IMG/VR virus record: IMGVR_UViG_3300013137_000070
Location: 1-32,101 of that record
Reading direction: 5' to 3' (one strand)
DNA: 32,101 nt
Source of the DNA: a virus
In this document: positions 188 to 16,927 of the stretch, in pieces
How the letters are laid out: every line of letters starts with the position of its first letter
Numbering within the stretch: the stretch's first letter is position 1
Notes under the pieces: generated by a model
Databases searched by the model: none
The model's input: the letters and a program-made list of their open reading frames with translations, nothing else
Told to the model about the DNA's origin: nothing
Position numbers and translations under genes: made by a program

Positions 188-496
188 ATGGCATTAAAAG
201 TAGCGTACACACTGAATGGGACAAATCTTACAGCAGCAGCAGCATACCTGAGAATCAGCAGAATCAATGGTGGCAAGAATCAGCTCTCTGTGGAAGTAGA
301 AGTATTCGAGACAGCAGAGAAAGCTCAGTTGCAGGGAGGCGATGACCCGATTCCTTTTCGTCATACTGTTGGGCATCCTATTGCCAATTTCTCATTTTCG
401 TTCGCTCCAGACCTGAATTCAGAAGATAACTTTCTGAAGCAAGCATATAATTACATGAAGACGCTGGAGCAGTATGCTAAGGCTGAGGATGTTTAA
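188..496 (+). CDS. hypothetical head-module protein, 102 aa
   Basis: The ORF starts at ATG 188 behind AGGAGG (174-179), and its stop (TAA 494-496) shares one base with the ATG of the MuF gene, so the two are translationally coupled. The protein looks like a compact soluble beta-rich fold: a hydrophobic alternating N-terminus (MALKVAYTLNGTNLTAAAAY), a central strand-rich part and a helical acidic C-terminus (KQAYNYMKTLEQYAKAED). No membrane segment or signal is seen. I do not recognise the family. The position between a presumed portal and MuF suggests a structural or assembly role, which is inference only. Confidence 0.75.
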   Translation: MALKVAYTLNGTNLTAAAAYLRISRINGGKNQLSVEVEVFETAEKAQLQGGDDPIPFRHTVGHPIANFSFSFAPDLNSEDNFLKQAYNYMKTLEQYAKAEDV

Positions 497-1284
497 TGGC
501 TAAGGCTTTGCCAAAGAATCCAGACAAAGATACCAAGAATAAGGAGATTAAAACAGCCCCGAAGAATTCTCCTTTTCAGAAGTCTCAGAGAATTCAAGGC
601 AGATATGCCAAGATCTTGTTTGGGGTAGCAAAAGAAATTGGCAAACTCATAAAAGGGTATGCCCCAACCGATATTCTCCAGGCAGAACGGCTTAGAGCAG
701 CTTTAAGACAATATTCTGACATCATTGGCCCTTGGGCATTAAAGATTTCTTTTGATGTTTTAAATGATGTAGACAGACAGGATAAAGCGACATGGCAAGC
801 TCATTCTAACCAAATGTCTGTTGCTTTAAAGCAAGAATTACTAAATGCACCAACTGGTGATTTATTTCAGCAGTTGATGAAAGAACAAGTTGGTTTGATC
901 AAGTCGATTCCAATCCAAGCAGCTGACAGAGTACATAAATTGGTTTCCGAAAATCTTTATCAAGGTCAACGAGCAGAATCTATCATGGAGAAGATTTTGC
1001 AAACAGAGAAGGTTTCTGAATCCAGAGCTAAATTAATTGCCAGGACTGAAATTGCAAGAGCGAGTACAAAGCTATTGGAGGCAAGGGCGCAACATGTAGG
1101 GAGTGACGGATATATCTGGAGAACGGCAAAGGATCTAATTGTAAGGCCAAGCCATAAAAAAATGAATGGGGTATTTGTGAAGTGGAGTGAGCCTCCTACA
1201 TTAGATAAAATGACAGGCCATGCAGGGTGTCTTCCCAACTGCCGTTGCTATGCAGACCCGGTTTTACCCGATGCAAAGTTTTAA
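496..1284 (+). CDS. MuF-type minor head / head morphogenesis protein
   Basis: This 262-residue protein carries the Phage_Mu_F signature in its C-terminal third. It has an RTEIARA helix near 183-189, R217-x-x-H220, MNGVFVKWSEPP at 223-234, and the terminal H-x-G-C-x-P-N-C-R-C motif at 242-251. MuF proteins sit at the portal vertex inside the head and are needed for head assembly; some members carry cargo or toxin domains, but none is visible here. The first 35 residues are lysine-rich and probably disordered. It starts one base before the end of the preceding stop codon. The family call is firm and the detailed role follows from the family. Confidence 0.9.
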   Translation: MAKALPKNPDKDTKNKEIKTAPKNSPFQKSQRIQGRYAKILFGVAKEIGKLIKGYAPTDILQAERLRAALRQYSDIIGPWALKISFDVLNDVDRQDKATWQAHSNQMSVALKQELLNAPTGDLFQQLMKEQVGLIKSIPIQAADRVHKLVSENLYQGQRAESIMEKILQTEKVSESRAKLIARTEIARASTKLLEARAQHVGSDGYIWRTAKDLIVRPSHKKMNGVFVKWSEPPTLDKMTGHAGCLPNCRCYADPVLPDAKF

Positions 1285-1299
1285 AGGGAGATAGAGAAA

Positions 1300-2235
1300 A
1301 TGCTTTTATCTGAGTTTTTAAAGTGGAAAGTGAACGACTCTGATTTCACAGAATCAGAACACCCCAGAGAATCAGATGGTAAATTCACTGAGAAAGGTGG
1401 AGGATCTTCTTCGTCAAATTTCAAAGCAGCAAAGACAGAGGGCAATATGAGAGTGCAAGCAGACGGATCTGCATTACCGGAGCATATTGCCAGGCTAAAG
1501 ATTCCTCCCGCTTGGACCGATGTTGAGTTTGATAGCAATCCTGATGCAACCCTGTTGGTCAAAGGCAAGGATGCAAAAGGAAGGTTGCAGTATGTTTATT
1601 CGGATGCTCATTGGGCGAAAGCTGCAGAGGCCAAGTTTGCCAGAGTTAATGAACTCAACCAAAAGTTTGAAGAGATCAGTAAGCAGAACAAAGCTAATCT
1701 AAAAGGGGAAAATAAGGAACCTGCGTTAGTGATTGATTTGATCATGAAGACTGGTATCAGACCTGGTTCTGACGAGGACACAAAAGCCAAGGTTAAGGCG
1801 TATGGGGCTACTACTCTTGAAGGGAGGCATGTTATCCAAGAAGGCGGTAAAATCTACTTGAACTTCATCGGCAAGAAAGGCGTCGATTTGAAGATTCCAA
1901 TTCAAGACTCTGATATTGGCCGGATGTTGATTGAACGTAAGATGAATAGAGGAGACAACAAGAAACTGTTTGATGTTTCTAATTCTCGGCTTTTGAATTA
2001 CACTCATATGCTTGATGGAGGTGGCTTTAAGACAAAGGACTTCAGGACCTTGTTGGGGACAAAGACAGCAATGAATCTTGTCAAGACAACAGATCGGCCT
2101 TCTAATGCGAAGGACTATAAGAGGAAAGTGATGGATATCGCGAAGAAGGTTGCATCTGTTCTTGGGAACACGCCTTCGGTTGCTTTGGGGAGTTATATTT
2201 CGCCGGTTGTGTTTGCTGATTGGAGGAAGGTATGA
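1300..2235 (+). CDS. DNA topoisomerase IB with a head-protein-like N-terminal extension
   Basis: This 311-residue protein reads as a poxvirus/bacterial-type topoisomerase IB, which relaxes supercoils through a 3'-phosphotyrosyl nick. Residues 58-118 match the N-terminal DNA-binding part (IPPAWTDVEF at 68-77, KDAKGRLQYVYSD at 90-102). The catalytic domain spans about 138-311. The catalytic set can be placed as Arg154 (TGIRPGS), Lys192 (FIGKKGVD), Arg249 (TKDFRTLLGT), Asn290 (LGNTPSVA) and Tyr299 (GSYISPVV). The nine-residue step from Asn290 to Tyr299 equals that of cellular and poxviral enzymes (His or Asn before Tyr). Residues 20-39 add HPRESDGKFTEKGG, a motif I associate with phage head-module proteins. 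The gene lies between MuF and the protease, an unusual place for a topoisomerase. No truncation or frameshift is seen, so it is probably active. Start by ATG 1300 behind GGGAG. Confidence 0.88.
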   Translation: MLLSEFLKWKVNDSDFTESEHPRESDGKFTEKGGGSSSSNFKAAKTEGNMRVQADGSALPEHIARLKIPPAWTDVEFDSNPDATLLVKGKDAKGRLQYVYSDAHWAKAAEAKFARVNELNQKFEEISKQNKANLKGENKEPALVIDLIMKTGIRPGSDEDTKAKVKAYGATTLEGRHVIQEGGKIYLNFIGKKGVDLKIPIQDSDIGRMLIERKMNRGDNKKLFDVSNSRLLNYTHMLDGGGFKTKDFRTLLGTKTAMNLVKTTDRPSNAKDYKRKVMDIAKKVASVLGNTPSVALGSYISPVVFADWRKV

Positions 2236-2381
2236 TGAATTTACCGAATGTCCACTTTGGTAAGATCAAAGATGAGGATGTTGATTGGAGAAAAGAAAAC
2301 GGAGATAGCGAAGAGGATTCGGAAGAAATTTCTGACGATGTAATTGCGATGCTTGGCTTTGATCCAAGGGATGAAAAATAA
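2232..2381 (+). CDS. small acidic hypothetical protein, 49 aa
   Basis: ATG 2232 overlaps the topoisomerase stop (ATGA), and a second in-frame ATG lies at 2235. GGAGG at 2222-2226 inside the previous gene serves either start. The product is very acidic in the middle (ENGDSEEDSEEISDD) and ends in VIAMLGFDPRDEK. Such short acidic proteins with a C-terminal LGFDP are, from memory, common near MuF and portal genes, but no function is known to me. Coupling to the topoisomerase gene and a strong ribosome-binding site support its reality. Confidence 0.6.
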   Translation: MMNLPNVHFGKIKDEDVDWRKENGDSEEDSEEISDDVIAMLGFDPRDEK

Positions 2382-2437: not shown

Positions 2438-2688
2438 ATGATTCTTTCTGAATTGGGGATAAAAGATGGCAGACTCCTGACGAAGGATTCTTTGACTGTT
2501 GACGGCGGTCCTGGGTCTGGACAAAAAGGACATAAGACCATTGGTTCAGTTTTTGCTAAACATCAATTAAATATAGCTAAAAAACTCTAAATATGCCTGA
2601 CGCTGCTGTTAATTTTCTTGGTGGAATGACTAAAGAAGAGGCAAGAAATTTATTGAAGCAACATGGGATAAGATTTCGGGAGGGATAA
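2438..2688 (+). pseudogene. small GGxGSG-tagged gene, apparently frameshifted in an A-run
   Basis: AGGAGG precedes ATG 2438, which opens a 50-codon frame to TAA 2588-2590 containing DGGPGSGQKGHKT (residues 22-34). Directly after it, a second frame (ATG 2593 to TAA 2686-2688) encodes LGGMTKEEARNLLKQHG. The two frames join if one base is added or the ribosome shifts -1 in the six-A run at 2579-2584, giving one 83-residue protein. It is either a gene broken by a homopolymer indel, a sequencing error, or two separate tiny genes. The run is not a classical slippery heptamer in the zero frame. A related broken copy lies at 7697-8049. Function unknown. Confidence 0.5.
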
Positions 2689-2970
2689 TGTCTAAAGCCC
2701 GCTTTTACATAGAAGAACAAATCAGTGAGAATATTGCAGAGACCCCGGAAGGTCTTGGGCCTAAAGTTAGGCGTTTCGGAAGAATTGCTCTTGTTTGTGC
2801 TTGCGGCTGTGCACCACATAGATTATTGCAAAACAAATTGCGATCCAGAAAATCTAATTTCATTATGTTTAAGCTGTCATGCAAAAACAGGTGCCGGCAA
2901 AAGACATGTATGGGTCAATTTTTTTGATAATTTGAAGAATGGAAATGCATTAGAGGTGGTTAATGTCTAA
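2688..2970 (+). pseudogene. HNH homing-endonuclease remnant joined to a diverged copy of the protease start
   Basis: The frame from ATG 2688 begins MSKARFYIEEQISENI and continues to TPEG. This mirrors residues 1-22 of the protease at 2963 (MSKIRFYTTEKISEHI), then it runs into an unrelated frame. A second frame (open from 2725, TAA 2968-2970) holds the C-terminal half of an HNH endonuclease: VHHIDYCKTNCDPENLISLC, then SCHAKTGAGKRHVW. The His-His and Asn of the nuclease core and the distal Cys pair (C-x-x-C) are present, but the upstream Cys pair and N-terminal DNA-binding part are missing. It looks like the scar of a homing-endonuclease insertion at the protease gene start. Probably inactive. 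Confidence 0.7.
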
Positions 2971-4363
2971 AATCAGATTTTACACTACAGAGAAAATATC
3001 TGAGCATATTTCAAAAACTCCAGAAGGGTACATTCTTTGTTCTTCGGTGCCAGTAACAAGAACCGGGGTTTTTGTCTACAAGTCAAGCGAAGTTCCTGTT
3101 GCTTCTGGTAAAGATGGCCTTGTCCACATCAAAAGAGACCCGGAGGAAGTATTTCATCCTGACACGATTTCCAGCGCACAATCCAAACCAGTGACGATCG
3201 ACCACCCGAAAGAAGCTGTTGACCCTACCAATTGGAAAGATCTTACAGTTGGAACGATGCAAAATGTTAGAAGAGGCGAAGGCGATCAATCAGATTTATT
3301 GTTGGCGGATCTTTTGATAACGGATGAAAAGGCCATAGAACTGGTTACAAGTGGATTGAGAGAAATCTCATTAGGATATGATTGTGAGTATGAATCTGAT
3401 TCAGACAAGGAGGGTTCTGGGAAACAAAAACAAATAATCATAAACCATTGTGCCTTAGTTCAAAAGGGACGGGCGGGGAGCAGATGTTCCATACGAGATG
3501 CAGAATGTACTCATTGTGGGCGCTGCCATGCTAATGATAAAAATACTACTGAGGAGGCAGGAGAGATGAAAGTCAACATGTTCAAGTCTTTGCTGAGAAA
3601 AATTCTTGATGCAATGCCTGACGAAGAAACAGAAGAAGAGTCCAAAGAAAAAGAGGAAAAGATTAAGCCCGAAGCTGAGCCTTTTAAGCCCAAAGAGAAA
3701 GAGGAAAAGGTCGAAGATGAAGCTGAGGAGGAGGAGAAGAAAGAAACAAAAGAAAAAGAGCCCAAAGAGAAAGAGGAAAAGGTCGAAGATGAAGATCCTA
3801 CCGACAAATACTCTATCAAATTGGAAGCCCTTGAAGCCAAAGTCGACGGTATCATAAAGATGCTTGAAGAACTTCTTTTTGAAGAGAAAAAAGAAGACGA
3901 CGAAGAAGAGAGCACTGAAGATGCCGAAGCCAGTGAAGCTGAAGAGAAAAAAGAAGCTGAAGAGAAAAAAGAAGCTGAAGAGGTTGCCAAGTCAGAGGTA
4001 AAAGATTCCTGGCAGGATATTGTCCATCGTGCAGAACTTCTTTCCCCTGGCATACGCATCAAAAAGCCGACCAAGGATTTTGCCTCTACGCTTATCGGTA
4101 TCAAATCGAATGCTCTTGAAGCGGCTTCCGAGGATGGTAACACCAAAGCGTTTGCTGAAGCTTTTGGGGTCAAGAATGGTAAGATCCCCGTCAAGATGAC
4201 GAGAGATGCTGTTAATGCAGCCTTTATTGGTGTTTCAGAGGCTATCAGTAAGGTCAACAACGCTAAGGTTCACAGTCAGAGCATGATTATTAAAGATCAC
4301 AAGTCTGCTGTTTCTGTGAGAGATATTAACTCCCGTAACAGGGAATTTTACAAAACCGTCTAA
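2963..4363 (+). CDS. prohead protease (DUF2213) fused to an acidic scaffold domain
   Basis: Residues 1-180 match the DUF2213 family of phage prohead proteases: an N-terminal strand region with VPVTRTGVFVY (29-39), PVTIDHP with His81, and GLREISLGYD with Ser136, which are the likely catalytic pair. The family processes scaffold and capsid proteins during head maturation. Cys182, Cys185 and Cys188 form a C-x-x-C-x-x-C cluster (ECTHCGRCHAND) that could bind metal. Residues 202-350 are highly charged Glu/Lys coiled-coil sequence with internal repeats, and 350-466 form a folded scaffold end. GAGGTGG precedes ATG 2963. An in-frame internal start at Met202 probably makes the scaffold alone. The total length (466) fits a protease-plus-scaffold fusion. 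Confidence 0.88.
   Translation: MSKIRFYTTEKISEHISKTPEGYILCSSVPVTRTGVFVYKSSEVPVASGKDGLVHIKRDPEEVFHPDTISSAQSKPVTIDHPKEAVDPTNWKDLTVGTMQNVRRGEGDQSDLLLADLLITDEKAIELVTSGLREISLGYDCEYESDSDKEGSGKQKQIIINHCALVQKGRAGSRCSIRDAECTHCGRCHANDKNTTEEAGEMKVNMFKSLLRKILDAMPDEETEEESKEKEEKIKPEAEPFKPKEKEEKVEDEAEEEEKKETKEKEPKEKEEKVEDEDPTDKYSIKLEALEAKVDGIIKMLEELLFEEKKEDDEEESTEDAEASEAEEKKEAEEKKEAEEVAKSEVKDSWQDIVHRAELLSPGIRIKKPTKDFASTLIGIKSNALEAASEDGNTKAFAEAFGVKNGKIPVKMTRDAVNAAFIGVSEAISKVNNAKVHSQSMIIKDHKSAVSVRDINSRNREFYKTV
3566..4363 (+). CDS. nested in-frame scaffolding protein, 265 aa
   Basis: Inside the protease gene, GAGGAGG at 3551-3557 stands eight bases before ATG 3566, in the same frame (Met202 of the protease). 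This start would yield the Glu/Lys-rich scaffold domain without the protease, as lambda Nu3 is made inside gene C. The product begins MKVNMFKSLLRKILDAMPDE, has a long charged coiled-coil middle, and ends in a more ordered region (about residues 150-265). The ribosome-binding site is as strong as those of normal genes here. The scaffold would shape the procapsid and then be cut out by the protease. Translation from this start is inferred. Confidence 0.6.
   Translation: MKVNMFKSLLRKILDAMPDEETEEESKEKEEKIKPEAEPFKPKEKEEKVEDEAEEEEKKETKEKEPKEKEEKVEDEDPTDKYSIKLEALEAKVDGIIKMLEELLFEEKKEDDEEESTEDAEASEAEEKKEAEEKKEAEEVAKSEVKDSWQDIVHRAELLSPGIRIKKPTKDFASTLIGIKSNALEAASEDGNTKAFAEAFGVKNGKIPVKMTRDAVNAAFIGVSEAISKVNNAKVHSQSMIIKDHKSAVSVRDINSRNREFYKTV
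3687..3794 (+). repeat. 36-bp direct repeat inside the scaffold domain (two copies)
   Basis: An exact 36-base segment occurs at 3687-3722 and again at 3759-3794, an offset of 72 bases or 24 codons, so the frame is kept. It encodes a KEKEEKVEDE-type charged segment. This suggests coiled-coil lengthening by in-frame duplication and is a likely site of length variation. Confidence 0.85.
3935..3982 (+). repeat. 18-bp tandem repeat (EAEEKK), about 2.7 copies
   Basis: The unit GAAGCTGAAGAGAAAAAA is repeated in tandem at 3935-3952 and 3953-3970, with a partial third copy at 3971-3982, in the reading frame of the scaffold. It is a typical slippage-prone charged repeat in a scaffold coiled coil. Confidence 0.85.
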
Positions 4364-4387: not shown

Positions 4388-4909
4388 ATGAGTAATGCTT
4401 TTGTTTACAGAATGCCTGCTGGTGTCCCGGGAGATGTTGGTCGGCTTGAACAGGCCACTATTGAACCGAATCAGTACGATACCGATTATCCTTGCCTGGC
4501 GTATGGTATCTTGGTAAAGTTGGTCGCCAGTAAGATCCGCCCCATTGCTTCCGGGGACGATATCTCGGCTGTTGGTTACGGATTCTTGGTCCGCCCGTAC
4601 CCGATTCAGGAACCTATTGGTTCGGCTGCAAGTTCTCAGGCACTTTCTGCTGGTGCACCTAATACGGCTCTTGCGGCTGATGTTCTCCGTAGAGGGTACA
4701 TGACTGTCAAGGTTACAGCTGGTGGTGCAACGGCTATTGCTTCTATTGCCAAGGGAGATGCTGTGTATGTGCGTTCTACTGCAGATACCGGCAAAGTAGT
4801 TGGCGATATTGAAGCTGGCAGCATTTCCGGGAATGATACCGTAACAGGGGCTATCTTCATGGGCGCTGCTGACACCGATGGCAATGTTGAAATTGCCTAT
4901 AACATTTAA
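4388..4909 (+). CDS. capsid cement / decoration protein (gp24-like)
   Basis: This 173-residue protein opens with FVYRMPAGVPGDVGR (5-19) and continues with a TIEP segment, as in the structural cement proteins encoded just before DUF2184-type capsid genes. Such proteins bind the outside of the capsid shell and stiffen it. The middle (about 75-150) is Ala/Gly/Thr-rich and beta-strand-like (GYMTVKVTAGG, AIASIAKGDAVYVR), with no membrane segment. AAAGGAGG at 4371-4378 precedes ATG 4388. The position between scaffold and major capsid fits. An antisense open frame covers the same span and is a codon-usage shadow. Confidence 0.75.
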   Translation: MSNAFVYRMPAGVPGDVGRLEQATIEPNQYDTDYPCLAYGILVKLVASKIRPIASGDDISAVGYGFLVRPYPIQEPIGSAASSQALSAGAPNTALAADVLRRGYMTVKVTAGGATAIASIAKGDAVYVRSTADTGKVVGDIEAGSISGNDTVTGAIFMGAADTDGNVEIAYNI

Positions 4910-4937
4910 CACAGATCAGAAAAGGAGGAAATATATA

Positions 4938-5912
4938 ATGATGACATTTGATAAGTATACACTCGACAGTACCGGCGCTTTTCTGGTCGGCGAGCTTGAA
5001 AGATTGGACCAGAAACTTCATGAACCCTTGGTTGCAGTGACCTGGGGTCGGGACATTGATCTTCGCGAAGATGTAAGTATGGCTGATGAATCATCCAGCT
5101 ATACCAATTCTACCTTTGCCGCTGCTGGTGGGATTGCTCCTACGGGCAAGAACTTCGTTGGTAAAGCAACCAATTCTATCCCTGGCATCGGCCTGGATAT
5201 TGGCAAGACCGTCAGCCCGTTGTATCTGTGGGCTACCGAGATTTCCTATACCATCCCGGAACTGCTTTCCGCCCAGCAGCTGGGTCGCCCTGTTGACGAA
5301 CAGAAATTTGCTGGTATGCAGTTGAAGTGGCAGATGGACATCGACGAAATGGTTTATATCGGCGACTCTGCTTATGGGAAGTATGGCTTGACCAATAGCA
5401 CTGCAGTTACGACTGGCTTTGTTGATGCCGGGACTTCCGGGTATACTCAGTGGACCAATAAGACTCCTGCTGAGATTCTGCATGATGTCAACTCCTTGAT
5501 TTCTGCTTGCTGGGCCGCTGCCGGTTATGCCGTGTGCCCCACTAAGCTTCTTCTGCCTCCGGCTCAGTTTGCTTACATTACCAGTCAGACCGTTTCTACG
5601 GCAGGTAATGTTTCGATCCTGAAGTTCCTGCAGGACAATTGCATCAGCCTCAGCATTAACGGCAAGAAGCTGGATATCCAGCCGGTCAAGTGGCTGGTTG
5701 GTCGCGGTGTTGCTGCTGGTTCCCCTTCAACTGCTACTGACCGTATGGTTGTTTACACGCAGGATAAGATGCGCGTACGCTTCCCACTCGTTCCGCTGCA
5801 GAGGACTCCGCTCGAGTACAGGAGCATAGCACATTTAACAACGTACTTCGGGCGTCTTGGTTGCGTAGAAACGGTTTACCCAGAATGCGTACATTATGCC
5901 GACGGCATATAA
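4938..5912 (+). CDS. major capsid protein (DUF2184 type)
   Basis: AAAGGAGG at 4921-4928 sets the start at ATG 4938, with another ATG at 4941; a longer upstream ATG at 4878 lies inside the cement gene and has no ribosome-binding site. The 324-residue product has the layout of the DUF2184 capsid family: an N-terminal acidic part with a WGRDIDLREDV segment, an EISYTIPELLSAQQLGRPVD helix region, WQMDIDEMVYIGD, and a late IQPVKWLVGRG strand followed by an RTPLEYRSIAHLTTYFGRLG C-terminus. It forms the HK97-fold shell. Codon use is GC-richer than in its neighbours, as is common for a highly expressed gene. Confidence 0.9.
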   Translation: MMTFDKYTLDSTGAFLVGELERLDQKLHEPLVAVTWGRDIDLREDVSMADESSSYTNSTFAAAGGIAPTGKNFVGKATNSIPGIGLDIGKTVSPLYLWATEISYTIPELLSAQQLGRPVDEQKFAGMQLKWQMDIDEMVYIGDSAYGKYGLTNSTAVTTGFVDAGTSGYTQWTNKTPAEILHDVNSLISACWAAAGYAVCPTKLLLPPAQFAYITSQTVSTAGNVSILKFLQDNCISLSINGKKLDIQPVKWLVGRGVAAGSPSTATDRMVVYTQDKMRVRFPLVPLQRTPLEYRSIAHLTTYFGRLGCVETVYPECVHYADGI

Positions 5913-8626: not shown

Positions 8627-10216
8627 ATGCCAATAGCCACTAATATACATGTCCATCCCTTTTTTGTAACCTGTACTGCAGGGGACAATGGGATTGTTAG
8701 GACTCCGGGACCTTCTTATCTGGATGAGTATAGCAATTTAATAGGCTATGTAAATGAAGGAACAGATGCTGTGTTCTTCATTTCTCCTAATCAAGGGTAC
8801 GGGGTGTTAGATGTTATTGTGGATGAGGTGTCTGTGGGGCCAGTTTTAAACTGGGAGTTCTCTAATATTGCGGAAGATCATTCCATTAGCGCCTCATTCT
8901 ATGCGTGCTCTTGGGATTTTACTGTTAATCTTGTTGGTCCTGAAAGCGCTCGTTGGATGGTGGACGAAGGTGCATGGAAGGTTAGTGGAGAGGTCATATC
9001 TATTCCCTCCGGGACCCATCGGGTTAGTTATTTAAATGTTGATCACTGGACTTCTCCAATAGATGAAATTGTTTATTTATCTCAGGATGAAAGCTTAGAC
9101 AGGGTTTATATTTCGCAGTATCTTACTATTACTTCTTCCTCTGGTAGTAATGGTTCAATTTCTCCTTTAGGGAGCACTTTAGTAGCATATGAAGGAAGCT
9201 GCACGTATTTAATATCCCCAGATGTTGGCTATGATTCCTCTGTTATGGTAGATGGGATTGATCAAGGGGGCATAGAAGAATACACTTTTGATAATGTCAT
9301 TGATGATCATACGATTTCTGCTTCTTTTGTCCGTAGTGCTCTAACAATCATGTCGTCTTCTGGAGACAACGGTTCAATTTTCCCTGCGGGGGAGATATCA
9401 ATTGCATATGAGCAGTCTATTCTTTTTGAAATATCTCCTGTTGAAGGGTATCGCGTAGAAGATGTCTTGGTTGACGGCGTAAGCGTAGGTTCTGTGGAAC
9501 AGTACGCTTTTTTAGATGTAACAATAAACCATACAATTTCTGCAACTTTTTCTACCTGGCAGTATTTTACGATTACTCCGTCTGTGAATGACCCCTTGAC
9601 AGGTTTAATAGTTGCTGAGGCCGAAAGCAATACTGTTGTTCAAGGAGGAAGTATAATATATGATGTATACGCGTTTCCGAATTTTTATGTGCGAGATGTT
9701 ACAGTAGATGGGGAGAGATACATATGCGGCCGTACAATAACTCATTATTCGTATGAATTTTCTAATGTCCAGCAGAACCACACAATTTCTGCGTATTTTA
9801 GCAATCTGCTTGATATTCAATTTTTCTTGTCTTTGCCTATGTCTTTAAACCTTTCTTCTCCGAGTTTATCTAAAATAGAAGAGACTCCTGTGAGCTCGAG
9901 TTTTTCTATGAATCTTCCTACTTCACCCGGTTTATCTTCTCCTTCTGCAGTAGTCTTTAGCTCCCTTGGCACTGCTACGATATCTATTGCCGTCCCGGGA
10001 GTAGTCACCAAATCAAGTCATGGTTTAATAGAGAATGATGAAATTAGTTTTTCAACAACGGGAGTTTTGCCGAATCCAATTGCCCCAGGGAAGAGTTTTT
10101 TTGTTCATAAACTTACAGATGACACTTTTAATATTATGGTGGTCCCTGATGGAAGTTACGTTGATACGACAGGGACTTCTTCGGGAGTTCACACTTTATG
10201 GAAAAGGGCAGTATAG
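8627..10216 (+). CDS. virion surface protein with InlB-B-like repeats
   Basis: This 529-residue protein contains about four copies of a ~70-residue repeat of the divergent InlB B-repeat type: residues 12-92, 166-234, 238-309 and 313-391. Each has SSGxNGSI-like starts, a YEGS...ISP strand, a VDG turn (VLVDGVSVGSVEQYAF) and an HTISASF end. Residues 97-165 form a more divergent unit. Residues 446-525 hold a phage-type module with SSHGLIENDEISF and a TFNIMVVPDG strand, seen in several virion proteins. No signal peptide or membrane segment is present. It is encoded between neck and sheath, so it may be a head-tail collar or whisker-like decoration that binds sugar or host surface; that is inference. 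Translation starts four bases after the neck gene stop. Confidence 0.75.
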   Translation: MPIATNIHVHPFFVTCTAGDNGIVRTPGPSYLDEYSNLIGYVNEGTDAVFFISPNQGYGVLDVIVDEVSVGPVLNWEFSNIAEDHSISASFYACSWDFTVNLVGPESARWMVDEGAWKVSGEVISIPSGTHRVSYLNVDHWTSPIDEIVYLSQDESLDRVYISQYLTITSSSGSNGSISPLGSTLVAYEGSCTYLISPDVGYDSSVMVDGIDQGGIEEYTFDNVIDDHTISASFVRSALTIMSSSGDNGSIFPAGEISIAYEQSILFEISPVEGYRVEDVLVDGVSVGSVEQYAFLDVTINHTISATFSTWQYFTITPSVNDPLTGLIVAEAESNTVVQGGSIIYDVYAFPNFYVRDVTVDGERYICGRTITHYSYEFSNVQQNHTISAYFSNLLDIQFFLSLPMSLNLSSPSLSKIEETPVSSSFSMNLPTSPGLSSPSAVVFSSLGTATISIAVPGVVTKSSHGLIENDEISFSTTGVLPNPIAPGKSFFVHKLTDDTFNIMVVPDGSYVDTTGTSSGVHTLWKRAV

Positions 10217-13211: not shown

Positions 13212-14813
13212 ATGGACGATGTTATAAAATCATATTTAATCTCTCTTGGGTATAAGATTGATACCTCATCTGCAGCGAAGTTTCAGGCTGCAATGAAAGC
13301 AGTCAATGATTCAGTTAATAAGTCTACAGAAAACATGGCGATGTCCTATGCTTCTGCTTCAATAAAAATAGTAGCTTCTTTTGCTGCTATTGGAGCAGGA
13401 ATAGCTTCTTTAATTGACCAGCTTGCTCAGGCGGATCTTGGGTATCAGAAATATGCTTTGCGAATGTATATGGCAAAGGATTCTGCAAAGCAGTTTAAAA
13501 TTGTTACCGATTCTATGGGAGAGTCTCTTCATGATATTGCCTGGATTCCAGAATTAAATGAGAGGTACAAAGATTTTATGGGGACTGCCGCTAAGATGGC
13601 TCTCCCTGAAGATATTGGTGAAACATGGAAAAAGGTTCGTGATATTCGTGGAGAGTTTACCCGGTTGAAAATAGAATCAAAGTTTGCTTTGGAGTGGATT
13701 GGATATAATCTTGTTAAAAATTTAGTATCTCCTATTGGAGACGCAAAGACTGCATTTAAAGGATTTAATGATTGGTTTGTTCAAAAAGTTCCTGAGTGGT
13801 CTAAAAAGATTGCTGATTGGTTTAGTGCTGTTTTGGATTATGTTTCTCCTGTTGGTAGAGCAATAAAAGAATTGGGTGAGATATTTCTTGATTTTTATAA
13901 TTCTTTAGGCCCTCTTGAGAAGCAATTATTGGCTTTTGGAGCGGCTCTTGCGTTTATGCTCAAGACAGGGCCAATAGGGGCAGTTACTACGGCCATGATT
14001 ACTCTAATCGCTCTAATGGACGATTGGTTTGCGTTTTTGGATGGAAGAAAAAGTGTTGGTGGAGAAATAGGAGTTTTTCAGGTTTTTGGAGCGGCTATAG
14101 ATACGGCTATCCGTTCAATGGCGGTAGCTCTTGCTATGGGAGAACGACTCTGGTATACATTGAGAGGAGAACAGTCTCCTGGCCAGAAAAGGAAACTTTC
14201 TGTCGTTGATGAAATAAAAGAAGTTTGGAATGGGGTTTCTGGGTTTTATGGCCCGGGAGGGATAAAAGAAAAGGCTGAAAATAAACACAAAACAGGAGCC
14301 CCAACTCCACCTTTGTCCTCGCACTCTAAAATTGATGTACCATCTGATGTAACTGAAGCTGCAGAATTGGCGTCTAAAAAAACAGGAGTCCCTGCGAAAT
14401 GGATTTTTGCTCAATGGATGCATGAGACAGGAGATTTAAAAAATCGTGGTGCTCGCGAACTTAATAATTTTGCTGGCATCAATGTTCCTGGAGGTAAAGG
14501 TCAAGACTATCGTAAATTTAATAGTGCTAATGATTTTGCGGAGTACTATTCGAATCTAATAAATTCTCGTCGTTACTTAGGGGCTAAGCAAGCGACTTCC
14601 TATGAAGAGTTTGCGAGAGGATTGGGTCGGGGAGGATGGTATACGGCAAATCCTAACGAGTATGTGATGGGAATGGGTCGTCATATAAATGATTATCAAC
14701 CTTTGAAATCCTCTGCCTCTTCTGGCAATACTATTATTATCAATGGGGCAATGGATATGACTCCCAGACGTTTAGAACATGTGCTGAATACAAGTTTTGC
14801 TTATCAGAGGTAG
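13212..14813 (+). CDS. tape measure protein with C-terminal glucosaminidase domain
   Basis: This 533-residue protein begins with a helical tape measure N-terminus, has hydrophobic segments near 51-68 and 236-268, and amphipathic helices between. Residues about 376-495 form a glucosaminidase (FlgJ/Lyz2-like) domain: VPAKWIFAQWMHETGDLKNR with catalytic Glu405, LNNFAGI (417-423), and WYTANPNEYVMGMG (476-489). Such domains cut peptidoglycan while the tail enters the cell. The C-terminus ends in a short helix pair. At 533 residues it is short; at about 0.15 nm per residue the tail would be near 80 nm or less. It starts right after the frameshifted chaperone. Confidence 0.85.
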   Translation: MDDVIKSYLISLGYKIDTSSAAKFQAAMKAVNDSVNKSTENMAMSYASASIKIVASFAAIGAGIASLIDQLAQADLGYQKYALRMYMAKDSAKQFKIVTDSMGESLHDIAWIPELNERYKDFMGTAAKMALPEDIGETWKKVRDIRGEFTRLKIESKFALEWIGYNLVKNLVSPIGDAKTAFKGFNDWFVQKVPEWSKKIADWFSAVLDYVSPVGRAIKELGEIFLDFYNSLGPLEKQLLAFGAALAFMLKTGPIGAVTTAMITLIALMDDWFAFLDGRKSVGGEIGVFQVFGAAIDTAIRSMAVALAMGERLWYTLRGEQSPGQKRKLSVVDEIKEVWNGVSGFYGPGGIKEKAENKHKTGAPTPPLSSHSKIDVPSDVTEAAELASKKTGVPAKWIFAQWMHETGDLKNRGARELNNFAGINVPGGKGQDYRKFNSANDFAEYYSNLINSRRYLGAKQATSYEEFARGLGRGGWYTANPNEYVMGMGRHINDYQPLKSSASSGNTIIINGAMDMTPRRLEHVLNTSFAYQR

Positions 14814-15584
14814 ATGTCCATGGTTAACTGGAATAAGTCTTTATTAGATACGTCAAGATTGCAGTATATTGCATGGCAAACTTGGCTGGAAGCAATAACA
14901 CCTAATCCTCAGTTGGAAGAAACAGCGTATCGTCCTGTTGGTTGGGCTAATCAGCAAATAGCAGAGCAATTGTCCGGGGAGGGGGCAGAAGAGGCGCAGT
15001 CTGGAGCAAATACGTGGATTGATGACGGGACAGGAGAGGCCTGGGTATTTGATGCTGTTCTTCAGTTAAATCATAGTCATTCACAGAGAATTACTCAGCA
15101 TCCCGTTCAAACAGGAGCGAGCAAAACAGACCATTCATTTTCTTTGCCTTCTAATTTGACTTTAGAAATTGGAATGAGCGATGTTATGGATAGTTTCAAT
15201 CCCGGCCAATGGGGAACGGCAGAGGAGGCTCCAACTCGGTCTGTTCAGGCATTCCAGAAATTATTGGAGTGGAAGAATGCTGGGACTCCACTGAATATTA
15301 CTACGAGATTGAACACGTATGAGAATATGGTAATTGCGTTAATTTCGGCTCCAGATGATTTTCAGACTTTTTATGGGTTGAAATGTTCAGTTACTTTTCA
15401 GCAGATTTTTGTAGCGAGTATGGAAGAAGGCTATACGGGAGAATTTACTTCAGATAGAGAAGCCGTGACAAATAAAACAGATGAAGGGACAAAAGGGGAT
15501 TCTCCGGCAAGAGCTACTGACTATAATCGAAATTCTAAGGCATACGATTTTATATTCGGTGATGGAATGTCTTTTGGTAAATAG
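14814..15584 (+). CDS. baseplate Dit-like N-terminal domain protein
   Basis: The 256-residue protein carries the motif HSQRITQHPVQTGASKTDHSF (split here across 88-108) followed by LPSNLTLEIGMSDVMDSF, the mark of the Dit-like baseplate proteins that join the tube end to the hub. The final 50 residues are polar and Gly-rich. It follows the tape measure immediately (ATG 14814 directly after TAG), with a second ATG at 14820. There is a usable AGAGG in the end of the previous gene. Confidence 0.75.
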   Translation: MSMVNWNKSLLDTSRLQYIAWQTWLEAITPNPQLEETAYRPVGWANQQIAEQLSGEGAEEAQSGANTWIDDGTGEAWVFDAVLQLNHSHSQRITQHPVQTGASKTDHSFSLPSNLTLEIGMSDVMDSFNPGQWGTAEEAPTRSVQAFQKLLEWKNAGTPLNITTRLNTYENMVIALISAPDDFQTFYGLKCSVTFQQIFVASMEEGYTGEFTSDREAVTNKTDEGTKGDSPARATDYNRNSKAYDFIFGDGMSFGK

Positions 15585-15593
15585 GAGGGAAGG

Positions 15594-15929
15594 ATGCAGC
15601 TAATTCCTTTGAATAGTTTAGATAATCAGACATTCCAGTCCTCTTTGTTGATAGATGGAGCAAAGAAAAAATTAAACTTTCGTCTATACTTCAATGAAGT
15701 TTGCAATTATTGGGCAATGGATATTATTGATGGAATAACACAAGAAGCTTTGGTTTCTTCAGTCCCATTGATTACGGGGTCAAGTAAGGAATCAACAAAT
15801 CTTTTAGCCCAGTATTCTTATTTGAGAATTGGGTCTGCTTATTTGATTAATGCGGAGAATGTATGGTCGGATCCTGATCATGTAACATTGGGAATTAATT
15901 TTCTCTTAGCTTGGGGTGATACTTTGTAA
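15594..15929 (+). CDS. baseplate plug protein (Pam3 gp18-like)
   Basis: The 111-residue product follows the pattern of the cyanophage Pam3 plug family: IPLNSLDNQTFQSSLLIDG, FRLYFNEVCNYWAMDIIDG, a SSVPLITGS turn, and LLAQYSYLRIGSAYLI. The plug closes the baseplate hub before ejection. GGAGGGA precedes ATG 15594, and its stop overlaps the next ATG (TAATG). Confidence 0.75.
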   Translation: MQLIPLNSLDNQTFQSSLLIDGAKKKLNFRLYFNEVCNYWAMDIIDGITQEALVSSVPLITGSSKESTNLLAQYSYLRIGSAYLINAENVWSDPDHVTLGINFLLAWGDTL

Positions 15930-16927
15930 TGGACACTTCAATGTATGGCCGTTATTGGAAACTTGACATTAAGTGTGCCGATGGGGCTACTTTCACTTTA
16001 AAAGCTGATGGATTTAAAACAGGAGAAATGTTAAAGTGTACTTTTGACATTAATTATCCTGGGTATGATGGCTGGTTTGTTTCTGAATTTAATATCTGGA
16101 ATACGAATTATGAAACACAAAAGAAAATTATTGAGTCCGGAGCTGAAGTGTACTTTTCTGCGGGTTATTCTGATGGCAGACAAGGGCAAATCTTTGGTGG
16201 AGATGTTTTTCAGGTGATGTATACTCGGGAGAATGTAACTGATAATCGATTGACTTTAGTCTGTGTTGATGGAAGTAGGCTCTACTCTGAGAATTTTACT
16301 TTATTTACTTTAGGCCAAGAATATACAGAAGCTACTCTTACCAATGCAGTAGCCTCCAGAGCAATTAAGCCCGTAGAGGTAAACTCTGAAGAACTTCCTC
16401 CTGAAATGGACGAAATAAAGTTTCCCAGAGGGAGAACGGTTTTTGGCTCTCCTTCTACAGTTGTTCGCGAAGTGACTCGAAATGCAAGAGGGTGTTTTTA
16501 TATGGATAAAGGGCAGTTAAACATTTTTTTGCCTACCGATGAGCCTGGGGATGAAATTGTAGATGTTAATCCAGAATCTGGATTAATAGGTACACCAATT
16601 CAAATTGAGAATGGAATTAGATTTAGAACTCTTTTGAACCCATTTATAACGTTGTCTAATCCCCCGAAGTGGGTAAAAGTTGATTTGAGTAAAGTAACTA
16701 TTCAACAGCAGAGAGCACAAATAGGGAAAGATCTTATTAGTAAGCTTCCAAAAGATGGCTATTTTCAAATTGGAGGGATAAGGCATACAGGAGATTCCAG
16801 AGGGAATGATTGGTACACAGATGTTGTTGGGTATTCTCTTGCTGGGGCTAAAGCTGGTTCGCAGTTGACTGTTCCTGGGATGAAAAGGATTTCTGAAAAG
16901 GTAGATCAAACCGGAGGGTCTCAATGA
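15929..16927 (+). CDS. baseplate hub protein (gpD/gp27-like)
   Basis: This 332-residue protein sits between the plug and spike genes, where the trimeric hub is encoded. It shows beta-rich tube-like domains (GRYWKLDIKCADGATFTLKA; ESGAEVYFSAGYSDG; QIFGGDVFQVMYTRENVTDN), then ARGCFYMDKGQLNIF and a late GYFQIGGIRHTGDSRGNDWY segment, the usual order of phage hub proteins of this class. The ATG overlaps the previous stop, and the end overlaps the next gene by four bases. Confidence 0.78.
   Translation: MDTSMYGRYWKLDIKCADGATFTLKADGFKTGEMLKCTFDINYPGYDGWFVSEFNIWNTNYETQKKIIESGAEVYFSAGYSDGRQGQIFGGDVFQVMYTRENVTDNRLTLVCVDGSRLYSENFTLFTLGQEYTEATLTNAVASRAIKPVEVNSEELPPEMDEIKFPRGRTVFGSPSTVVREVTRNARGCFYMDKGQLNIFLPTDEPGDEIVDVNPESGLIGTPIQIENGIRFRTLLNPFITLSNPPKWVKVDLSKVTIQQQRAQIGKDLISKLPKDGYFQIGGIRHTGDSRGNDWYTDVVGYSLAGAKAGSQLTVPGMKRISEKVDQTGGSQ

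Follow-up and report, generated by a model that had tools for sequence, protein, structure and literature searches.

The window analysed here, a whole IMG/VR record of 32,101 bp, includes in its head-gene region an intact ORF whose product was confirmed, by sequence and predicted fold, as a complete topoisomerase IB (TopIB), with DNA relaxation as its predicted activity (Table 1). As the first-pass annotation had described, the gene lies between those for MuF and the prohead protease. It begins 15 nt after the end of the MuF gene, is separated from the DUF2213 protease gene by a few short ORFs and, in this phage, stands alone, without fusion to any other protein.

Table 1. Coordinates of the topoisomerase IB gene of the window, its parts and its neighbours.
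Feature	Position	Strand	Basis or remark
MuF head morphogenesis protein, upstream neighbour	496..1284	+	PF04233 (3e-17), phrog_324
Topoisomerase IB, 311 aa	1300..2235	+	intact ORF; catalytic R154, K192, R249, N290, Y299
Putative head-cargo tag, residues 16-34 (FTESEHPRESDGKFTEKGG), then Gly/Ser linker	1345..1401	+	motif survey
N-terminal DNA-clamp domain, ~residues 41-100	1420..1599	+	PF21338 at residues 62-91; model strands 41-100
Catalytic domain, ~residues 102-311	1603..2232	+	PF01028 at residues 109-294; Foldseek
Acidic 49-aa partner (MMNLPNVHFG...DVIAMLGFDPRDEK)	2232..2381	+	start overlaps topoisomerase stop (ATGA)
DUF2213 head maturation protease with acidic scaffold-like part, downstream neighbour	2963..4363	+	PF09979, phrog_530
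Cement protein	4388-4909		downstream of protease
Major capsid protein	4878..5912	+	PF09950

The HMM search and the structure prediction proposed with that annotation matched a TopIB profile and gave a TopIB fold, respectively, and Pfam, PDB sequences, AlphaFold and Foldseek all concurred on an intact enzyme. The product matched PF01028 with an E-value of 9e-21, and the expected N-terminal DNA-binding domain was recovered both as strands of the model and as a match to the bacterial domain PF21338 (E 6e-5, below the curated cut-off of that profile). By phmmer, it matched the PDB sequences of the Deinococcus radiodurans TopIB (2f4q, 3e-25) and the variola topoisomerase (2h7f, 5e-10). AlphaFold, run with a 49-sequence alignment, reached a pLDDT of 91 and a pTM of 0.81 (pLDDT 42 in the single-sequence run), with lower values, of about 50-66, in the tag region. 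The best Foldseek matches of this model were 3m4a/2f4q and variola 2h7f/3igc, at a TM of about 0.65. An identity as tyrosine recombinase or integrase was rejected, since recombinases appeared only at E > 5e-3 (XerH, 6e-3), against 6.5e-15 for the TopIB 3m4a. The five catalytic residues named in the first-pass annotation are at the positions it gave and were invariant across 53 aligned sequences, which indicates that catalysis is under selection. With the D. radiodurans enzyme (2f4q/3m4a) the phage protein shares the fold, the N-terminal clamp and the catalytic residues including the Tyr, as well as the Asn that replaces the poxvirus His. It ends 12 residues past the catalytic Tyr, whereas the aligned bacterial TopIBs extend tens of residues beyond.

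In the interval between the topoisomerase and protease genes, positions 2725-2970 and 2688-2927 hold an HNH endonuclease remnant (HNH_3, E 0.002) beside a partial duplicate of the start of the protease gene, covering its first ~20 codons (MSKARFYIEEQISENIAETPEG versus MSKIRFYTTEKISEHISKTPEG). Together they are probably a decayed homing-endonuclease insertion.

The protein had also been described as starting with a tag linked to proteins of the MuF region. The tag is real, but it occupies residues 16-34 rather than the extreme N-terminus, and its sharing among proteins of the MuF and portal region was borne out by a survey of tagged loci. Its profile reads [F/W]xE[S][D/E]HPRDxDGKF(T)xGGG, followed by a Gly/Ser-rich linker, and within the window the HPR motif was not found in any other protein. 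As a DNA pattern, HPRxxDGKFT alone gave at least 119 loci in viral contigs; among the matches listed, the motif lay mostly in long ORFs, near the N-terminus or at domain junctions, and at least one head gene was recognised at 74 of the 119 loci with a limited profile set. The motif core occurred 276 times in ORFs of the fetched loci and twice in composition-shuffled ORFs, figures that do not amount to a background rate because many of these loci had been chosen by the tag. Behind the tag, in 103 segments among the matches listed, the recognisable domains included Zeta toxin (5), PBECR3 (4), ADP-ribosyltransferase (ART; 3), topoisomerase IB (3), NUDIX (3) and GNAT (3), and also LPD13, LPD3 and RelA/SpoT. 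Cultured phages have it too: Pseudomonas phage Orimi01 encodes a portal (PF06381)-tag-ART protein and Faecalibacterium phage FP_Brigit a portal-NUDIX-tag-payload protein. In T4, a short N-terminal capsid-targeting sequence sends the internal proteins into the prohead as cargo; the HPR tag is likewise short and N-terminal, but the two sequences are unrelated, and targeting by the tag, like its possible cleavage by the protease, is putative.

The domains found behind the tag are largely the companions of polyvalent and MuF-linked effectors (PMC5512222, PMC5576092, PMC9503650), domain types that have been argued to be packaged in the virion (PMC5512222, PMC9503650). Those effectors resemble the tagged proteins in being multi-domain products of head operons, fused to portal or MuF, and share with them ART, NUDIX, PBECR, InPase, GNAT and LPD domains. 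A topoisomerase was not found among the effector domains in the texts of PMC5512222 and PMC9503650, nor the HPR tag in that of PMC5512222, and the acidic partner described below is new here. No description of the tag was found in the open-access literature; it gives a simple means of predicting head cargo among phage proteins. A 50-aa ORF of the window (2438-2590) contains another tag-like motif, DGGPGSGQKGH; the motif may be a second cargo tag, and the ORF the remains of a cargo gene. GGPGSG/GSGNFGH-like motifs also occur upstream of the topoisomerase domains of three related loci (L203, L243 and L265).

Viral contigs were searched for relatives of the enzyme with its catalytic core alone, leaving out the tag, to avoid the tag bias of the earlier pattern search. 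This gave 171 relatives, 80 of which were kept, at 70 distinct loci. The HPR tag directly preceded the topoisomerase domain in 43 of the 70, and 17 had variant tags by pattern (for example, EPRDERGRWTAGG or GGPGSG); seven had no tag by pattern, with a variant visible by eye in five of these, and three were truncated. Among the 43 HPR-tagged loci, the enzyme was fused to a portal in 18 and to a head protease in three, while head genes were near in 21 of the remaining 22. Portals of four Pfam families (PF06381, PF05136, PF06074, PF04860) were involved, and other fusions joined the topoisomerase to MuF (L212, L240), to the DUF2213 protease (L141, L146), to ART (L248, L253) and to NUDIX (L234 by Pfam, L096 and L038 by reading). 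Portal-tag-topoisomerase and protease-tag-topoisomerase arrangements were seen by Pfam within single ORFs. Many loci without matches to the survey profiles had other portals or MuF proteins, fused or adjacent, including portals of PF05136, PF06074, PF04860 and the T4-type PF07230; a few were left without a recognised neighbour. On a tree of the phage sequences the portal-fused state required 18 changes, so portal fusion was gained or lost many times.

In a TopIB tree with some long branches and rough supports, the window enzyme nested in a phage clade, apart from the bacterial plasmid-borne and the jumbo-phage TopIBs. The members of this clade also differ from the bacterial enzymes in having the head tag, the acidic partner and the head-operon position, and in lacking the C-terminal extension. 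Two plasmid matches (H2 and H24), the alignments of which start near the tag, were untagged bacterial-type enzymes.

A replication-module location in related phages, the counter-evidence named in the first-pass annotation, would have spoken for an ordinary topoisomerase of replication or transcription, merely expressed from the head operon. Almost all the relatives were instead among head genes or fused to portal, MuF or protease. The exception was L210, a 281-kb contig on which an untagged member of the clade lies next to a gene for NAD-dependent DNA ligase, and the TopIBs of the Lu11-like phage HRDY3 and of Rhizobium phage RHph_N46 are likewise near DNA-metabolism genes. The HRDY3 and RHph_N46 enzymes, however, belong to a separate, longer family. 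Jumbo-phage TopIBs (Lu11, HRDY3, PaBG type) are also phage-encoded but measure ~540-600 aa, have ~26% identity to the window enzyme and are in a DNA-metabolism context where this was read. Such a housekeeping role leaves the tag, the portal and protease fusions and the company of effectors unexplained, and we consider it very improbable. On L210, two different TopIBs (8812-9798 and 14296-15987) lie ~5 kb apart and flank the DNA ligase, one of them the untagged member of the head-cargo clade and the other of jumbo type.

Overlapping the stop codon of the topoisomerase gene is a small ORF that was absent from the first-pass annotation. Its product is strongly acidic, with ~30% Asp+Glu and the consensus LPxxHFG...DWR...DPDDEEL..TPxDVIAMLGFDP, and matched no family in Pfam, PHROGs or PDB. 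This partner was present on the same strand in 68 of the 71 topoisomerase loci with room downstream, mostly at -15 to +60 nt, as a separate ORF in 60 and within the same ORF, downstream of the topoisomerase domain, in eight. Among the matches listed, it was present at none of the tag loci without a topoisomerase gene. The reverse search of viral contigs, with the DNA pattern DV[IV]xMLGFDP, yielded 51 stretches. The peptide profile confirmed 41 of these, and the topoisomerase was upstream of the partner in 37 of the 41. Two of the other four (L284 and L315) have the same portal-tag gene with the topoisomerase domain deleted in frame; in the remaining two, the topoisomerase gene was found separately on the same contig (L292 with L244, L295 with L220). 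All 41 contigs reached from the partner motif thus carry the topoisomerase gene or a remnant of it, and the partner is a near-obligate companion of the enzyme. The ORFs of L284 and L315 retain the first ~35 residues of the topoisomerase domain and the acidic peptide, and their tag reads HDRDNEGKF.

Because the peptide is also present at L210, the data suggest that it belongs to the enzyme and not to the head, and that untagged locus beside the DNA ligase indicates that the pair can exist outside head operons. The partner represents a new family, associated with a single enzyme, and may be a natural inhibitor of TopIB. Independently of how the enzyme is used, the peptide might, instead of an inhibitor, be a split subunit: the C-terminal part of the enzyme, supplied in trans. 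Its fusion downstream of the topoisomerase domain in eight of the 68 loci and the shortness of the window enzyme after its Tyr would agree with this, but the partner has no visible sequence similarity to the bacterial C-terminal extension, and so acidic a composition is unusual for a subunit of a DNA enzyme. We regard the split subunit as a serious possibility, though not the favoured one.

The gene is rare among known genomes. A tblastn search of 50,697 phage records with three members returned no close relative and no cultured phage with this gene, the only matches being an enzyme of Bacteroides phage BS162P1, distantly related and lacking the HPR tag, and those of large phages. With the window protein alone as query, no close relatives were found in viral contigs. 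Among species genomes, one Gammaproteobacteria MAG had the same arrangement (TerL-portal-MuF-tagged topoisomerase-peptide-NUDIX/protease-MCP) and a second match (L267) was partial; no second carrier was found in 369 genomes around the MAG. Three of the isolates closest in MuF and capsid (Acinetobacter A785.1, Burkholderia Magia and Bordetella IFTN9) have no topoisomerase, and in them MuF is followed directly by the gene in the protease position, which makes the topoisomerase an optional gene.

These isolates bear on whether the enzyme acts during packaging or after ejection, both of which had been suggested at first. In the former case, it would be active at the portal inside the prohead and take twist or kinks out of the DNA as it is packaged. 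The position in the head operon agrees with this, and fusion to the C-terminus of the portal, which is equally compatible with an action in the head and one after ejection, would place the enzyme at the DNA entrance. The nearest relatives, however, package their DNA without it, other members are fused instead to protease, ART, NUDIX or GNAT-like parts, and a free end allows linear DNA to lose its twist. A role in packaging looks less likely, and we hold it to be improbable; an action after ejection is favoured because the nearest isolates package without the gene and many of the domains fused to it are effectors, which play no part in packaging.

Among the features by which virion effectors are recognised, the window gene has the head-region location, and fusion to portal, MuF or effector domains was seen in its relatives only. 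From the head-protein tag and these portal fusions, we infer that the virus particle probably contains the enzyme, just as poxvirus particles contain their topoisomerase. The direct results (the fold and intact active site, the head-operon position, the tag, the recurrent portal, MuF and protease fusions and the near-obligate peptide) are, in our judgement, best read as those of a tagged head cargo with a dedicated partner, a reading we consider likely. The enzyme would be made late, from the head operon; its tag would single it out for loading into the prohead, as has been inferred for other phage effectors with a tag, and it would travel in the virion and be ejected with the genome. Phage genomes enter the cell as linear DNA. 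In the first minutes of infection the active enzyme could then relax supercoils on the incoming molecule, needing neither ATP nor host enzymes. The acidic peptide would most likely be a DNA-mimic-type inhibitor or a chaperone, preventing the enzyme from engaging DNA in the producing cell; alternatively, it would be a subunit.

A delivered enzyme might also be directed at the host chromosome, as a weapon or counter-defence effector with the acidic peptide as its immunity protein. The tag is common to toxin and effector domains, and the gene order, with its overlapping start, is like that of toxin-immunity pairs. A TopIB, however, re-seals what it cuts, many bacteria carry one of their own, and plasmid-borne copies were found; we judge a weapon to be unlikely, marginally more so than a packaging role. 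A bolder form of the head-cargo reading, to which we give a little less than an even chance, is that of a two-part module widespread in uncultivated tailed phages: a TopIB loaded into the head by a cargo tag or portal fusion, silenced in the producing cell by an acidic DNA-mimic peptide and released onto the genome at entry, as the phage counterpart of the poxvirus virion topoisomerase. The vaccinia/variola enzyme (2h7f) is likewise a small TopIB, of similar fold (TM ~0.65), but has ~20% identity to that of the phage, has neither tag nor portal fusion and belongs to an unrelated particle; its virion location is reported, and that of the phage enzyme is deduced. According to references cited in PMC12188299, vaccinia encapsidates its TopIB, which works mainly in early transcription.

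Neither the TopIB family nor the notion of phage effectors packaged in the head is new. The literature searched seems to contain no description of TopIB as head cargo, of the tag as a mark shared by such cargo or of the acidic partner, and the open-access literature yielded nothing on packaged or virion topoisomerases in phages. If true, delivery of a topoisomerase with the DNA would be the first case known to us in tailed phages and would mirror the poxviruses. To our knowledge, the topology of phage genomes in the first minutes after entry has been little studied.

Several of the related loci had unusual architectures. Apparent intein or HINT insertions were seen in the portal gene of L155 (4657-9444) and in the MuF gene of L266 (5908-7713), and the MuF-topoisomerase fusion of L240 gave a match to Pfam Intein_splicing. 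In the portal-tag-topoisomerase fusion of L148 (212-2455), the N-terminal DNA-clamp domain is absent and the catalytic domain intact. L140, L145 and L146 have polyprotein-like ORFs of 1375-1767 aa, in which several HPR tags lie between protease, topoisomerase, NUDIX-like and metalloprotease-like domains.
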